Shown: in pieces, positions 5,506 to 60,450 of the stretch
Layout of the letters: each line of letters begins with the position of its first letter
Position numbering within the stretch: position 1 is the first letter of the stretch
Source of the DNA: Qipengyuania xiapuensis
Lineage (GTDB): Bacteria; Pseudomonadota; Alphaproteobacteria; Sphingomonadales; Sphingomonadaceae
Direction of reading: 5' to 3'
Assembly (NCBI RefSeq): GCF_019711395.1
Contig: NZ_JAIGNL010000001.1
Location: forward strand, 124,001-188,000
Length of the DNA: 64,000 bases
The notes under the pieces: generated by a model
What the model was told of the DNA's origin: nothing
The model's input: only the letters and a program-made list of their open reading frames with translations
Databases searched by the model: none
Position numbers and translations under genes: made by a program

Positions 5506-6524
5506 TCCTGGCGGCCGATCGCGTGGGCGCCCCAAGCGTAAGCAGCCACGAGCAGCGCTCCCACCAGCTGGTGCAGCACGGCGAGGTGGAATTCGACGCC
5601 CGTCATGACCGTCGCGATGCCGAGCAGGATCTGGATGCCGAATGCCGAGTGGATGGCAATCGATGCCTTGCGGTTCACCGGTTTCACTTTGCGCGCCATG
5701 ACAATAAGCGCGGCGACCGCGACCCACGCCCACCAGCGGTGCATCCAGTGGATCAGGAAGGGGTCGTGCGTGAGGGCCCAGAACATGCCCTGCGAGGTAT
5801 CGTATTCGGGTATGAAGCGGCCCTGCATCAGCGGCCAGCTATCCGAGGCGAGGCCTGCGTTGAGGCCGGCGACCCAGGCGCCGAGCAGCAGCTGGATGAA
5901 GAGGATTGCGCCGGTCCATCCGGCAACCGCGCGCATCCGTGCCGGACGCTGGTGACCCTTGGCCAGTGCGCGCAGGTCGAGCGCGGTCCAGATGAGGCCG
6001 CCCAGCAGGATCAATGCAGTGCACAGGTGGATCGCAAGGCGGAAGTGGCTCACGTCGGTGCGCGTCTCGAGGCCCGAGGCGACCATCCACCAGCCAAAGC
6101 TGCCCTGCAGGCCGACCAGAGCCACCAGCGCGAAGAGGCGCCAGAAATAGCCCTGCGGGATGATCTTGCGCGCGGCGAAGAGCGCGAGAGGGACAGCCAG
6201 CGCAAGCCCGATCAAGCGGCCGAGCTGGCGGTGGATCCACTCCCACCAGTAGATCGTCTTGAACGCCTCGAGATCCATGCCTGCCGGGCCGTTGATCTCG
6301 ATATACTCCGGAATCTTCTTGTAGAGTTCGAACTCCGCTTCCCAGTCGGCCTGGCTCAGCGGCGGCAATGCGCCCAGAACCGGTTTCCACTCGGTGATCG
6401 ACAGGCCGCTTTCGGTAAGGCGCGTGATGCCGCCGACGGTCACAATCACGATGACCATCAAGGCAACGATGAAGAGCCAGTTCGACAGCAGGAGCGGGCG
6501 GGCGCGAGAGGCGGTCTCGTTCAT
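5502..6524 (-). CDS. ctaA: Heme A synthase (COX15/CtaA family)
   Basis: A 340-residue polytopic membrane protein with about eight hydrophobic helices. Conserved histidines of the heme-binding four-helix bundles are visible: WWEWIHRQLGRLIG, VSHFRLAIHL, HWMHRWWAWVA and LAVLHQLVGALL, and the N-terminal motif GGITRLTESGLSITEWKP is typical. The enzyme converts heme O to heme A for cytochrome aa3 oxidase in the inner membrane. I prefer the ATG at 6524 (MNETASRARP) over the codon ten residues upstream. It overlaps cutA by ATGA. Confidence 0.94.
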   Translation of the reverse strand: MNETASRARPLLLSNWLFIVALMVIVIVTVGGITRLTESGLSITEWKPVLGALPPLSQADWEAEFELYKKIPEYIEINGPAGMDLEAFKTIYWWEWIHRQLGRLIGLALAVPLALFAARKIIPQGYFWRLFALVALVGLQGSFGWWMVASGLETRTDVSHFRLAIHLCTALILLGGLIWTALDLRALAKGHQRPARMRAVAGWTGAILFIQLLLGAWVAGLNAGLASDSWPLMQGRFIPEYDTSQGMFWALTHDPFLIHWMHRWWAWVAVAALIVMARKVKPVNRKASIAIHSAFGIQILLGIATVMTGVEFHLAVLHQLVGALLVAAYAWGAHAIGRQE

Positions 6525-6639
6525 GATGTGCGCTATGTGCTGTCCGGCACGCAAATCGCAAGTGCAAATGGTTCAATCGGCATACCGGCCACAGCAAGCG
6601 ACAAAATGCGTCCCTGATCGCAACCGGCTCTTGTAACAG

Positions 6640-6652: not shown

Positions 6653-6666
6653 ATATCTGCAGTGAC

Positions 6667-7071
6667 ATGTTGCAACGCGCCATCCTGCCGATTCGTCGGA
6701 GGCTCGACCGTTTCGGTATCGGGCTTTCGGGTCTTTGCGCGCTGCATTGCCTCGCCAGCATCGTGCTGGTGTCGGGGCTCGGCATCGGCGGGGAATTCTT
6801 CTTCGCTCCCGAAATCCACCGCTGGGGCCTTGCGATCGCGACGCTCGTCGCGGCCGTCGCCATCGGCTGGGGCGCGCTGCGCCACAAGATGGCCGCACCC
6901 TTCGTGATCGCGATGACCGGCCTCACTTTCATGGGCGGCGCGCTGGCCGTCCCGCATGGCTACAAGGAAGCGATCCTGACCATCATCGGCGTCGCGCTTG
7001 TGTCGCTCGGTCACATCCTCAACCTGCGCCATGTGCACTCCGCCGCTTGCAAGGAGCGCTGCGGAGACTAA
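6667..7071 (+). CDS. MerC-domain membrane protein
   Basis: A 134-residue membrane protein with the MerC signature near its N-terminus (GIGLSGLCALHCLASIVLVSGLG), where the Cys-x3-Cys-like pair around LCALHCL is the usual metal-binding element in MerC transporters. Three or four hydrophobic segments follow, and the C-terminus carries HVHSAACKERC, another possible metal-binding patch. Family members transport mercury, but many chromosomal copies without other mer genes are thought to serve other metals. No merR, merT or merA is nearby. The ATG at 6667 was chosen because a GTG at 6640 would lie inside the operator-like palindrome. Confidence 0.78.
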   Translation: MLQRAILPIRRRLDRFGIGLSGLCALHCLASIVLVSGLGIGGEFFFAPEIHRWGLAIATLVAAVAIGWGALRHKMAAPFVIAMTGLTFMGGALAVPHGYKEAILTIIGVALVSLGHILNLRHVHSAACKERCGD

Positions 7072-56363: not shown

Positions 56364-58031
56364 TCAGCCGGAGGCGATCCGGCCCTGTTCGAGCCGTACC
56401 ACCCTGTCGGCGATTTCGGTGAGCAGGCCGCGATGCGCGATGGCAAGGACAGTGCGCCTGCCCGCCATGGCATGGAGCGCGGCGCCGATTGCCTCCTCGC
56501 TCTGGGAATCGACCGAGCTCGTCGCCTCGTCGAGCACGATGAGATCGGGATCGCGCAGCAGCGCCCGTGCGAGCGCGATGCGCTGGCGTTCTCCGCCCGA
56601 AAGCGCCTTGCCGCCCTCGCCGAGGTCGCAGTCGAGCCCTTCGGGCAGTCGATCGACGAAATCGGCCGCAGCCTCCTTCAATGCGGCGCGGAGCTGGTCT
56701 TCGCTCGCATCGGGTTTGGCCCAGAGGAGGTTGTCTCGCACCGTACCGGAGAAGAGCACCGGCTCCTGCTGGACATAGGCAACGCGGGTCCGCCATGCGC
56801 GCCGCGCCCCCTCGCCGAGCTTCGCGCCGTCGATCGAAATCGACCCCTCGTCGGGCGCGATCAGGCCCGCCGCAATGTCGGCCAGCGTGCTCTTGCCCGA
56901 CCCGGAGCGCCCGGTCAGCGCCAGCATCTCGCCGGCCTCGATCCGCAGGGTGATGCCGCTGAGTGCGGGCCTTCCCGGCTGGTGCGAGAAGCTCACGTCC
57001 GCGAGCTCGACCCGCTGTGTCAGGCGAGGCGCGTCGCCGTCCGAAACCGGCTCTGCCGCCTCGCTCGCCGCCTCGATCATGGAAAGTGCATCGGCGATCG
57101 CGGGGGAGGCATGGCTCCAGCCCTGCATGGCCGACTGGAGCGAGCCGACGAGCGGCAGCGCGCGCACGAAGATCGCCGCCAGCGCGAGCACGATGGCCAG
57201 TTCAAGCTCGAGCAGTTCGAGTGCGAGCCAGGCGAGGCCCGCCGCCATGATCGCGCCCCCGATGTGCAAGGCCGCCTGCCCGATCGCGCTGTCGCGGACG
57301 AAGGCGAACTCGGTGCGGCGAAGTTCGCGCAGGCTCTCCGACAGCTCCTGCGATGCCTGCACCTCGCGCCCGAAGCTCTTGAGGATGCGCTGTGCGGCCA
57401 AGGTCTCGCCAAGGCGGGAATAGAGGAGGTCATATCCGCGCGAGAGCGTCTCGCCCAGCGCGCGGGCACGCCGGATCAGCGGGCGATAGAGAAGCAGGAC
57501 GAAGGCGGCTGCCGCCCCGCCGGTGAGCGCCGCGGCGGGCGAGACCACCATGGCCGCCAGCGCCAGCGCGAGGAGCGCGAAGCCGAGGCGCACGAGCTGT
57601 GCCGCCATCTCCACCGCATAGCCTGCCCGGTCGACATTGGTGACGAGCAGCGCCTCGCTCTCACCGCGCCGCCGCGTCATTGCCCAGCGCCAATTGGCAT
57701 TGAGCAGCGCGTCGAGCGCGCGGATGCGGAGACCATCGACGATGCGTGCGCGCAGGTCCTGTTCGGCCAGCGCTCGCGCGACGTCAGCGACAGAGCGCAG
57801 GATCACCAGCACGACGAAAACCGCGAGCAGCACTCCGAGCGATAGGGAAGGCAGGGCGAAAGGCAGTGCAGCCACCTCGCCGCCCTGAGCCGCGAGCGCG
57901 ATCAGCGGGACGAGGAGGACGAAGCCGATGCCCTCGCTCGCTGCGCTCAGCAGCGAGAGCAAGAGGACCCGCACGGTGGCAGCGCGCGTGCCGATCGCCA
58001 GGAGTGCGGGAAGGGTCCGGTCGAAGGCCAT
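56364..58031 (-). CDS. ABC exporter (fused permease-ATPase), RiPP-associated
   Basis: A 555-residue half-transporter. The N-terminal 300 residues hold six predicted membrane helices. The ATPase domain has LTGRSGSGKSTLADIAAG (Walker A), YVQQEPVLFSGTVRDNLLWA (Q-loop), LSGGERQRIALARALL (signature), DLIVLDEATSS (Walker B) and LAIAHRG (H-loop). There is no C39 peptidase domain at the N-terminus. It lies 42 nt after the asparagine-synthetase-like gene. Its place corresponds to the D protein of lasso-peptide clusters, which exports the mature peptide. Confidence 0.88.
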   Translation of the reverse strand: MAFDRTLPALLAIGTRAATVRVLLLSLLSAASEGIGFVLLVPLIALAAQGGEVAALPFALPSLSLGVLLAVFVVLVILRSVADVARALAEQDLRARIVDGLRIRALDALLNANWRWAMTRRRGESEALLVTNVDRAGYAVEMAAQLVRLGFALLALALAAMVVSPAAALTGGAAAAFVLLLYRPLIRRARALGETLSRGYDLLYSRLGETLAAQRILKSFGREVQASQELSESLRELRRTEFAFVRDSAIGQAALHIGGAIMAAGLAWLALELLELELAIVLALAAIFVRALPLVGSLQSAMQGWSHASPAIADALSMIEAASEAAEPVSDGDAPRLTQRVELADVSFSHQPGRPALSGITLRIEAGEMLALTGRSGSGKSTLADIAAGLIAPDEGSISIDGAKLGEGARRAWRTRVAYVQQEPVLFSGTVRDNLLWAKPDASEDQLRAALKEAAADFVDRLPEGLDCDLGEGGKALSGGERQRIALARALLRDPDLIVLDEATSSVDSQSEEAIGAALHAMAGRRTVLAIAHRGLLTEIADRVVRLEQGRIASG

Positions 58032-58073
58032 CGCCGGTCCTATGCCGCAGCAAGGCAGCGCCGCAAAGGGCGC

Positions 58074-59957
58074 TCAGAAATCATTGCGCTGCTCGGTATG
58101 CGATACGAAGGTCGCCGCGGTGAGAGCGCGGGTGATGCCCATTTCGCGCGGGAGGCGCTCCGCCAGGTCTTCGGGCGTCGCCTCGGGCCAGTCGCGCAGC
58201 AGGTGTTGCAGCCGGTCGATATCGAGGACTTCGGAAAGCTGCCCGTGGCTGCGGATCGCCTCGGCCTGCGCGATGAGTTCCTGCCGGCGTGCGCCGATTC
58301 GGGCGTGCCAGTCTGCGTTGTGGCGGCCCTGCCTGCGCTCGAGCCGCTGCGCTTCGGGCATCATGCCCTTCGCCATCCGGCGGGCGAGGAAACGGTCGGT
58401 GCCGCCTCGCCGAAGCTGGTCGGTGGGCAGGCCGTGGCAGAATTCGAACAGCGGGCGATAGGCGGTGACGTCTCGGTGCGCGATGCCGTGAAGCCGCTCC
58501 AGGCCGAGGTCGACATCCTCGCCGCTGTCGGCGCTGGCCCACATCCAGCGGATCGCCTCCTCGCGGCTGGCCGAGACGGTCGCTTCGTCGAACACCGATC
58601 GCGAGCGCCGCCGTGCCGCCCGCTCGCGCCAGCTCTTGGTGGCCGCCTCGCTGAGCAGCGATCCGAGCGGGCGATCGCCGAAACGTTCGGGGTGGAAGGC
58701 CTTGCGGACGGCGCGTTGCATGCCGCCGGGCAGGTTGGGCAGGACCGCCTTCGACAAGAGGCGGCGCAGCGCCGAATGCCGCTCGTCCTCATGCGCATCG
58801 GCAAGCAGGCGGCGCAGCTTGAGGAGACGCCCCCGCCTCAGTGCTTCTGCGGGTGCCCAGTCGGCATCGAGGCTGAACGTGAAATTGCCGTGCATTGCGG
58901 TGAACATGGCATCGCAGCCCTGCCGCTTCGCCGCCTCGAACAGTGGGTGGAAGATGCCGATATTGGCGACATTGACGCTGGCCACCTGCGTCCGCGCGAG
59001 CAGGTCGCGCAGGCGGTGGTCGTGCCCGCCTGCGCGCGGATCGGGGAAGTGCGCCTTGAGCCGGGGATGCATGGCCACAAAGCGTTCGACCCGTTCGCGC
59101 TCGTCGCCGAATGTGCCTTGTGGAGACGCTCCGTCCCAACCGTCGACCGGCCCGAAGGTGTAGCTGTGCAGCACCGTATCGCCGGGAAGCTGGCGCAGCA
59201 GGGCTGCGGCGGCGAGCGGGCTGTCGAGACCTCCGGAAAGCATGATGGCGGGGGCAGTTACGCCGGCGAGCGCATGGCCTGCCGCTTCGTCCAGCAGCTC
59301 GATGCCGCGTTCGACATAGGCCTCGTCCGTAGGCAGCTCGACCCGCGGCACCGCGAGAGGATCGTAATAGCGCTCGACCTTCCAGTCGGCGCCATCGCAC
59401 CGCACCCGGCTGCCGAGCGGCACGCGCCCGATGCCCTCGAACCAGCCGCGCGGCTGGCAATCGTGGTGGTCGTAGGCGAGCTCGTCGGCGAGGTGGTCCC
59501 AGTGGATGCGCTTCTCTACGCCCGCAGCAAACAGCGCGCCCAATAGCGGCGAGGCCGCGAGGCAGTCCCTGCGCGCAGCAAAATGCAGCGGGGGCGCGGT
59601 CCATGGCGAGCGGACGAGCCTCAGGCGCTGGGGCCCTTCGACCGTGATCGCGCAATAGTGGCCAACTAGCTTCAGATCGGCCTCGTCGCCCCAGCGGGCG
59701 AGTGCGGCATCGTAGATTTCCGAGGGTGCTGCACCGTCATTGAGGCCAAGTGCGGCGGCGCATTGCGCGGCATTGTCGATCCGCCCGAAGAAGACCGTCC
59801 GCCCTTGTTGCTCGAATTGCGAACCTTCACCCCAAAGAGTGAAGCCGAGGCATTCGCCGCATTTTGGAGGGCCATTTCCGTCGTCGGCGATGACTCTGCC
59901 GATGGCAGCAATTCGTGGCGGTTCTAGTCCCGGTGCAAGCCACGCAGCAGCGATCAT
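58074..59957 (-). CDS. Asparagine-synthetase-like cyclase homologue, glutaminase-dead
   Basis: A 627-residue AsnB-family protein. The N-terminal glutaminase-like domain begins [16 protein letters not shown] and lacks the Cys2 nucleophile that AsnB needs to release ammonia from glutamine. The ATP-pyrophosphatase loop is intact: [20 protein letters not shown] (SGGLDS at about 241-246). This combination is typical of lasso-peptide cyclases and beta-lactam synthetase, which adenylate a carboxylate and let an internal amine attack. The ATG at 59957 lies 28 nt after the precursor gene; an open frame further upstream would overlap that gene. No strong ribosome site is seen. Confidence 0.85.
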
Positions 59958-59985
59958 TGGACGGGGCTGCCGGTGCGAGGACTGG

Positions 59986-60123
59986 TCAGGATCGGCGGTT
60001 GGGCCCGGCCTGGAAGCCCGAACCGACCGGCCCAGCGATGTCACGGATAGTTCCGAGCCGTTCGAAGGAGGGTTTCTCCCACTGCGGCTTCTTCGGCGTC
60101 CCGTTCGTGTCGTTCTTGCGCAT
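59986..60123 (-). CDS. Putative RiPP precursor peptide (lasso-like leader)
   Basis: A 45-codon gene between the PqqD-like and asparagine-synthetase-like genes. The ATG at 60123 has AAGGAA eight bases upstream (60132-60137) and the reading frame stops at TGA 59988-59986. Residues 15-31 are [17 protein letters not shown], which follows the lasso leader pattern Y/W-x2-P-x-L/F-x2-L-G-x5-T-G, except that Ala30 takes the place of the penultimate Thr. Residues 32-45 are [14 protein letters not shown], the predicted core, which has no Asp or Glu. The first 14 residues are polar and Lys/Asn-rich. Whether the core starts at Gly31 or Pro32 is not certain. Confidence 0.72.
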
Positions 60124-60131
60124 CGTCACAT

Positions 60132-60137
60132 TTCCTT
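60132..60137 (-). promoter_or_regulatory. Ribosome binding site of the precursor gene
   Basis: On the minus strand AAGGAA stands eight bases before the precursor ATG. The only nearer upstream ATG (60131) is immediately followed by TGA, so the start at 60123 is well defined. Confidence 0.65.
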
Positions 60138-60177
60138 TGGTGAAACGATAGCAAACCGCTTCGTCACGTCCAAGGCG

Positions 60178-60450
60178 CTATTGTGCGCTATGCGCAACCA
60201 GAGATGCAGCTTCGAGCTGGGTAATCAACTCGGCGACATCGCGCGCGATGTCCTGCTTGTCGCCCTCGTGCAGCTCGGCCATTTCCGCCGCGATCTCGGT
60301 TTCGCTGCGCTTGCCGTCGATCGCTTCCCAGACGCTGCGCGCGGTGCCTTTGAGCGAGAACAGCTCGCCCCCGTCGAGATCTACGATGAGTATCTCGTCA
60401 TCGACCTTGGTGGCGACGAAGTTTTCCGAGAGCTTGCGCAGTGCGACCAT
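60178..60450 (-). CDS. PqqD-family leader-recognition protein (lasso B1-like)
   Basis: A 90-residue protein of the PqqD/RRE family. The pattern [36 protein letters not shown], then [11 protein letters not shown] and [15 protein letters not shown], has the beta-strand trio plus helices that bind RiPP leader peptides, seen here in order. In lasso clusters a separate protein of this kind (B1) brings the precursor to its processing enzymes. It is the first gene of the minus-strand RiPP operon, 54 nt before the precursor ATG, and diverges from rpe. No pqq genes are present. Confidence 0.88.

Follow-up and report, generated by a model that had tools for sequence, protein, structure and literature searches.

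A lasso-like peptide locus of Qipengyuania xiapuensis and its precursor family with glutamine at the predicted ring position

The window analysed here, a 64,000-nucleotide stretch of the Qipengyuania xiapuensis genome (2.71 Mb, two contigs), carries four minus-strand genes, B1, A, C and D, with the gene content of part of a lasso-peptide cluster, a kind of ribosomally synthesized and post-translationally modified peptide (RiPP) locus. We found that the precursor A belongs to a family which, judged by alignment, has Gln at the place of the ring-forming acid, and this is the new point. The Asp/Glu acceptor is treated as part of the lasso peptide definition, and mining tools lean on it. Since lasso membership fails on the acceptor residue, we filed the locus as lasso-like. 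With moderate confidence, we propose that it belongs to a dispersed, kinase-tailored, lasso-like RiPP pathway in which the ring-closing residue would be encoded as Gln38 and not as Asp or Glu. The genes, the precursor family, the position of its Gln and the co-occurrence with B2 protease and kinase (K) genes were observed directly in the genomes compared.

A precursor family with a conserved glutamine

We searched 298 genomes of the same taxonomic family for C at a threshold of E 1e-20. The results showed C matches in 53 genomes, covering 28 of 96 genera and 62 places, 60 of which were taken as regions, leaving out the window and one additional place in G166. Together with the window and L038, a Sphingomonadaceae metagenome-assembled genome that was the one relative found in a scan of genome contigs, 62 loci were examined. 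A window-type precursor was present at 37 of them, one locus having two, which gave 38 precursors with the window included. The other 25 loci gave no W..P.[LFVM]...G precursor and were excluded from the 38; among them, L090, L092 and L098 have lasso-like precursors with other leader types. Precursors were not found at L074 and L075. Chance motif matches in other frames were removed by eye, and 15 acid-type rows were also chosen by eye. The four-gene arrangement, which a sequence-only reading of the window had proposed to search for and to align by precursor, recurs in other genera; because it does so with recognisable precursor relatives, it is more than chance.

The alignment was numbered from the leader Trp (position 1), so that position 24 (W+23) is Gln38 of the window. 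All 38 precursors aligned without gaps from this Trp, with W, P and G invariant at positions 1, 4 and 10 (38/38) and Val or Ile at position 15, the Ile29 of the window, in 38/38 and in 9/9 further precursors. Gln was found at position 24 (core 7 or 8) in 30 of the 38, and both of its codons are used (21 CAG, 9 CAA). The eight precursors without Gln24 have Gln25 (L043, L060), Glu24 (L057, L069), Asp25 (L072, L073, L077) or Asn25 (L081). The entropy of the W+23 column was 1.22 bits, compared with 2.5-3.5 bits for core +1 to +6, +8 and +9, and its agreement was 60% against 5-22% for the other core columns (620 pairs with C identity below 45%). The last residue was Ser in 37 precursors and Thr in one, and again Ser in 9/9 further precursors.

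These further precursors came from running the precursor profile on 397 genomes of the family, where E < 1e-8 was counted as a strong match. Nine strong matches were new to the analysis, eight of them from genomes not sampled earlier, and Gln24 was present in 7/9, a set biased towards Gln because the profile itself contains it; the other two have Asp24 (L260) and Asn25 (L256). In a class-wide search of 385 genomes, a sample to which the same family contributes at least four genomes besides that of the window, the window's own genome alone passed E 1e-3. Outside the family, two weak matches were obtained at E 0.006, with a short motif-like frame at L225 and none at L226.

Several single loci depart from the common pattern. 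L081 and L256, both from the genus of the window, have Asn at W+24 and neither Gln nor an acid at the ring position. L072, L073 and L077 (G221, G178 and G258, genus g37) are second A-C pairs with Asp at W+24; B1, B2 and D were not matched near them, and their host genomes also carry a compact Gln-type locus. L047 has tandem precursors (6437-6586 and 6661-6789), one alone of which has Asp after Gln24.

In the window, A (59986..60123, minus strand) translates into 45 residues with the leader motif W15..P18..F20..G24, Gln38 (CAG, 60010..60012, minus strand) at the predicted ring-closing position and a C-terminal Ser45 (59989..59991, minus strand) as candidate phosphorylation site. Neither Pfam nor NCBIfam gave a match to it at E 1, and a ribosome-binding-like AAAGGAAAT was judged by eye to lie 5' of its ATG. 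No Asp or Glu follows Asp28, and Thr(-2) of the leader is absent, with Ile29-Ala30 there instead, which bears out the sequence-only reading that A breaks two rules of lasso precursors.

An Ile/Val(-2) rule has been described, and BsfA satisfies both Tyr(-17) and Ile(-2) (PMC10368454). If the rule applies to A, Ile29 (Asp28-Ile29 codons, 60037..60042, minus strand) would be the -2 leader residue, core 1 would be Gly31 and Gln38 would be core 8; if the aromatic leader residue is set at -17, core 1 would be Pro32 and Gln38 core 7. We favour the Ile/Val(-2) numbering, because alignment position 17 is Gly in 28/38 precursors and because the residue nine places after Ile/Val is Asp or Glu in 9/9 acid-type precursors, the same offset as from Ile29 to Gln38. 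Ile/Val stands at W+14 or W+15 in 9/15 acid-type precursors, and the remaining six are without it. By both numberings the predicted place of Gln38 is within the core 7-9 range, and the Ile/Val of the family and of its acid-type relatives probably marks cleavage. A ring on the conserved leader Asp28 was considered and rejected, as core 1 would fall within the leader motif.

B2 and kinase genes outside the locus

No B2 gene was found at the window locus. The sequence-only reading had said the same, and this was correct for the locus and not for the genome, which holds elsewhere a B2 above the NCBIfam cut-off and likewise a lasso-type kinase. The one PF13471 match in the genome lies on the other contig and encodes 145 residues. 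It exceeds the cut-off of the lasso B2 model (NF033537, 63.9 bits vs 33), keeps the Cys and His common to the compared B2 proteins, and has a Csp1-like/DUF326 gene on one side and an acyl-CoA dehydrogenase gene on the other.

The B2 family was found in 53/53 C-positive genomes compared to 81/245 C-negative ones (Fisher p 3e-22), and wherever the main locus is without B2, PF13471 occurs elsewhere in the genome (20/20). We compared the neighbourhoods in 11 of 18 B2 regions, and B2 was at the same chromosomal place in 9 of these 11, across five genus groups, L130 and L132 being the two that differ. The PF13471 genes of g3, g66, g78 and g92 represent separate lineages of B2, and in some g16 and g38 genomes B2 lies 7-20 kb from a second B1-C-like locus. 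The unambiguous cases are therefore the five genomes in which PqqD and PF13471 each gave a single match (G000, G078, G198, G239 and G058), and here B2 was at the same chromosomal place in 5/5. A natural case of absence is G146, from the same genus as the window, where matches to the locus, PqqD, PF13471 and the kinase are all absent.

As the C-terminal Ser is near invariant, we searched for a lasso kinase. The window's genome has two Hpr_kinase_C matches, a 168-residue frame, which from its length looks like an ordinary short HprK, and the 311-residue P0005. P0005 is barely above the Pfam cut-off (PF07475, 34.0 bits vs 33.3), has a weak likeness to HprK-related kinase A, and shows by eye a His..Lys..Asp-Asp pattern, the motif named for lasso kinases (PMC9266682). 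Kinase matches at E 1e-8, a threshold that also admits distant HprK-like proteins, were found in 53/53 C-positive and 57/245 C-negative genomes (Fisher p 4e-28). With at least 40% identity and E 1e-60, 22 genomes remained, 21 of them C-positive; the other, G247, is 73% complete. Of the 20 genomes in which B2 is missing from the main locus, 18 have a strong kinase match, and G092 and G274 have the kinase beside the locus. An HprK-like kinase elsewhere in the genome and the C-terminal Ser45, both features of the paeninodin type, are present in the window's genome.

Two further observations concern kinase loci. At L194, the kinase gene lies by eye between a Na+/H+ antiporter-like and an RNase E/G-like gene, and of the 23 kinase loci compared, several matched at one or other of these flanks. 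L181-L188, L191, L268 and L269 represent a second, distant B1/kinase locus, with or without C; the precursors there are rich in acids and can share the leader ending SDVAG with the window family.

Tabulation of 37 of the 53 C-positive genomes placed both K and B2 next to C in 14 and both away from it in 18; only K adjoins C in 2, and only B2 in 3. Compact loci have the order K-B1-B2-A-C-D, and since these related loci keep the genes together, the window looks like a dispersed version. In a C tree built by a quick method without bootstrap, the window falls in a supported 14-row clade that is Gln-type with B2 not in place. The Glu-type rows L057 and L069 are nested in the Gln-type part, and L081 is on a long branch; the residue requires a minimum of 4 changes, and the in-place B2 a minimum of 5.

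Cyclase C, the proposed pathway and competing readings

The sequence-only reading of the four genes in a row was confirmed by domain searches. B1 (60178..60450, minus strand) encodes a 90-residue PqqD-like leader-binding protein, a RiPP recognition element (RRE; PF05402, E 3.4e-15), and is the sole PqqD match in the window's genome. C (58074..59957, minus strand) encodes a 627-residue AsnB-like PP-loop enzyme with an Asn_synthase domain (PF00733, 32.2 bits vs cut-off 21). D (56364..58031, minus strand) encodes a 555-residue ABC exporter with fused membrane and ATPase domains (ABC_membrane, PF00664, and ABC_tran, PF00005), in which a peptidase domain was not found. All four frames, A included, are open at these coordinates. 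The locus is flanked by rpe, upstream on the opposite strand, and by a DUF2141 gene downstream; among the four genes and these two neighbours no peptidase was matched, and no search was aimed at an archaeal-type signal peptidase.

C retains the SGGLDS ATP motif and has no N-terminal Cys at position 2, in agreement with its earlier description as a glutaminase-dead AsnB homologue. Its best NCBIfam match is the lasso cyclase model, below cut-off (57 bits vs 525). The AlphaFold model of C had a mean predicted local distance difference test score (pLDDT) of 90.8, and Foldseek with this model retrieved TsnB9, carbapenam synthetase, beta-lactam synthetase and AsnB (E 6e-19 to 9e-16). A profile search agreed with these matches, and phmmer against PDB sequences gave 0 matches. 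By the filter used, 25 columns of C separate 31 Gln-type from 11 acid-type rows, the sharpest being Ala354 (29/31 Gln-type, Gly in 11/11 acid-type) and His546 (28/31, Gln in 11/11). Since the two Glu-type rows are split at column 354 (one Gly, one Ala) and the acid-type rows are more distant, these differences are suggestive only, and phylogeny alone could explain columns 354 and 546.

In the proposed pathway, B1 would bind the WxxPx[LF] leader of the precursor, and a kinase encoded elsewhere would phosphorylate its C-terminal Ser. B2, also encoded elsewhere, would remove the leader, probably after Ala30; C would then activate the ring-closing side chain and join it to the new N-terminus, and D would export the product. 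We infer each of these catalytic steps, the cleavage site, the ring and any threading from sequence comparison. Our best guess is that the ring closes at residue 38, since the position is homologous, Glu, Asp, Asn and Gln exchange there and the ATP site has been retained. The product would be an isopeptide ring, formed either after prior deamidation of Gln or by transamidation with loss of NH3, and the two routes are predicted to give the same product and mass. An amidine ring is less likely. Amide-like carbonyls are activated by other PP-loop enzymes, ArgG and TilS among them, and C might adenylate the Gln38 amide oxygen, so that attack by the N-terminus would yield a macrocyclic amidine with loss of H2O and not NH3; we regard this as quite unlikely, and if true it would be the first time that a lasso-like ring is closed through a side-chain amide. 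For the 15-residue core, the calculated [M+H]+ is 1486.751 for the linear peptide, 1469.724 for the lactam and 1468.740 for the amidine, or 1429.730, 1412.703 and 1411.719 if cleavage falls one residue later; a phosphate would add 79.966.

Several observations weigh against the proposed pathway. An acid lies within core 7-9 by at least one numbering in 17/38 precursors, so the ring could be ordinary in those. Asp23, directly before Gln, occurs in 9/38 and Asp25, directly after Gln24, in 4/38, L045 having both; these adjoining acids suggest that what the family keeps constant is its Gln and not a plain absence of acid. The link of the distant B2 to the locus rests on co-occurrence, and finding B2 and K elsewhere in a genome is no proof that they work with it; the count of 53/53 also takes in loci with K and B2 in place. 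The other B2 lineages, the second B1-C-like loci and the Gln bias of the profile described above belong here too, as does a scan of the locus region that gave no sigma-70-like promoter and no terminator. The sequence-only reading had suggested a peptide with a different modification, to be abandoned if homologues all had B2 and an acid at core 7-9. Such uniformity was not seen: B2 is in place at 14/37 loci and not at 23/37, and 21/38 precursors have no acid at core 7-9 by either numbering (19/38 have none from position 18 onward). The suggestion fits a family with Gln at the ring-acid place in this respect and is offset in part by the acid-bearing members; that the chemistry differs from that of lasso peptides would follow only by inference.

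It is possible, though doubtful, that Gln marks a different reaction. C would then act elsewhere, for example on the Ser45 carboxylate, Gln would be a recognition or structural residue, and the product would be linear, head-to-tail or C-terminally modified. The acid-free majority just counted, the ATP motif that C always retains in the compared rows and the near-invariant C-terminal Ser would all suit this, and linear polyphosphorylated peptides (LPP), which are linear phosphorylated lasso relatives, do exist, though without a cyclase (PMC13381572). However, Glu and Asp substitute for Gln at the same place within the family, and in described relatives the kinase acts on the C-terminal Ser (PMC9266682), which also ends 15/15 acid-type precursors and is therefore no peculiarity of the Gln type.

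An ordinary lasso with a shifted acid is unlikely. Its ring would be on the Asp adjoining Gln, as the precursors with Asp23 or Asp25 would allow, and Gln-only peptides would be uncyclised, decaying or neofunctionalised; but the position of this Asp varies and it is absent in most members, whereas Gln is conserved and encoded by both of its codons, and genes are intact at about 30 loci over many genera. Decay of the locus was rejected for its conservation in many genera. We consider it very unlikely that the distant B2 and kinase have another role and that the leader is removed here by a different protease. G104, G120 and G291 have the same B2 clade and no window-type C at E 1e-20, which speaks for it; yet these three carry a more distant B1 and C 7-11 kb from B2, all-together loci exist in the same clade, and in G000 PqqD, PF13471 and long Asn_synthase matches occur once each.

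If the proposed pathway holds, a Gln-conserving family with an intact cyclase would widen the chemistry of this enzyme family or reveal a hidden deamidation step, and the natural Glu, Asp, Asn and Gln variants within one family make the acceptor question directly testable. Single-locus mining would call pathways with scattered B2 and kinase incomplete.

Comparison with known systems

C shares the amide-forming AsnB fold of TsnB9, carbapenam synthetase and beta-lactam synthetase, at an identity below 16%. These enzymes act on carboxylates of small substrates. LPP clusters share with the window the RRE, an HprK-like kinase, an exporter and a related leader motif; they have no cyclase and have an archaeal-type signal peptidase (PMC13381572), and membership of the window locus in this class was rejected because C is present. 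Metanodin indicates that ring-forming rules are wider than mining tools assume, and overlooked lasso precursors have been warned of (PMC12670498). Unlike the window family, metanodin varies residue 1 (Asn) and retains the Asp acceptor (PMC12670498).

In the accessible literature, with supplements and subscription papers outside its scope and prior notice therefore possible, we found no report of a Gln acceptor, an amidine ring or a trans-acting B2; glutamine is absent from the accessible text of PMC13352647 and PMC8498205. The main text of PMC10368454 likewise has no Gln or glutamine, and its supplementary list of Sphingomonadales precursors may hold family members.

The bsf lasso cluster of Bradymonas sediminis shares with the window Ile/Val replacing Thr(-2), a kinase and split B1/B2, and Ile/Val(-2) precursors have been noted from Sphingomonadales too (PMC10368454). 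It differs in that the BsfA ring is on Asp8 by its authors' assignment, Ser3 and not the C-terminal Ser is phosphorylated, and the genes are all in one cluster (PMC10368454). There is a close likeness in parts to paeninodin-type lasso peptides, including SyanA/SyanK of Sphingobium yanoikuyae, which share the WxxP leader, B1, B2, C, D, the HprK-like kinase and the C-terminal Ser (PMC9266682; PMC13381572), although paeninodins have been called restricted to Bacillota (PMC13381572). The leader motif [Y/W]xxPx[L/V/I/F/A] and its partner B1 are both present in the window. Compared with the paeninodin type, the window has Gln in place of Asp or Glu at the predicted ring position, B2 and the kinase off the locus, and no Thr(-2).

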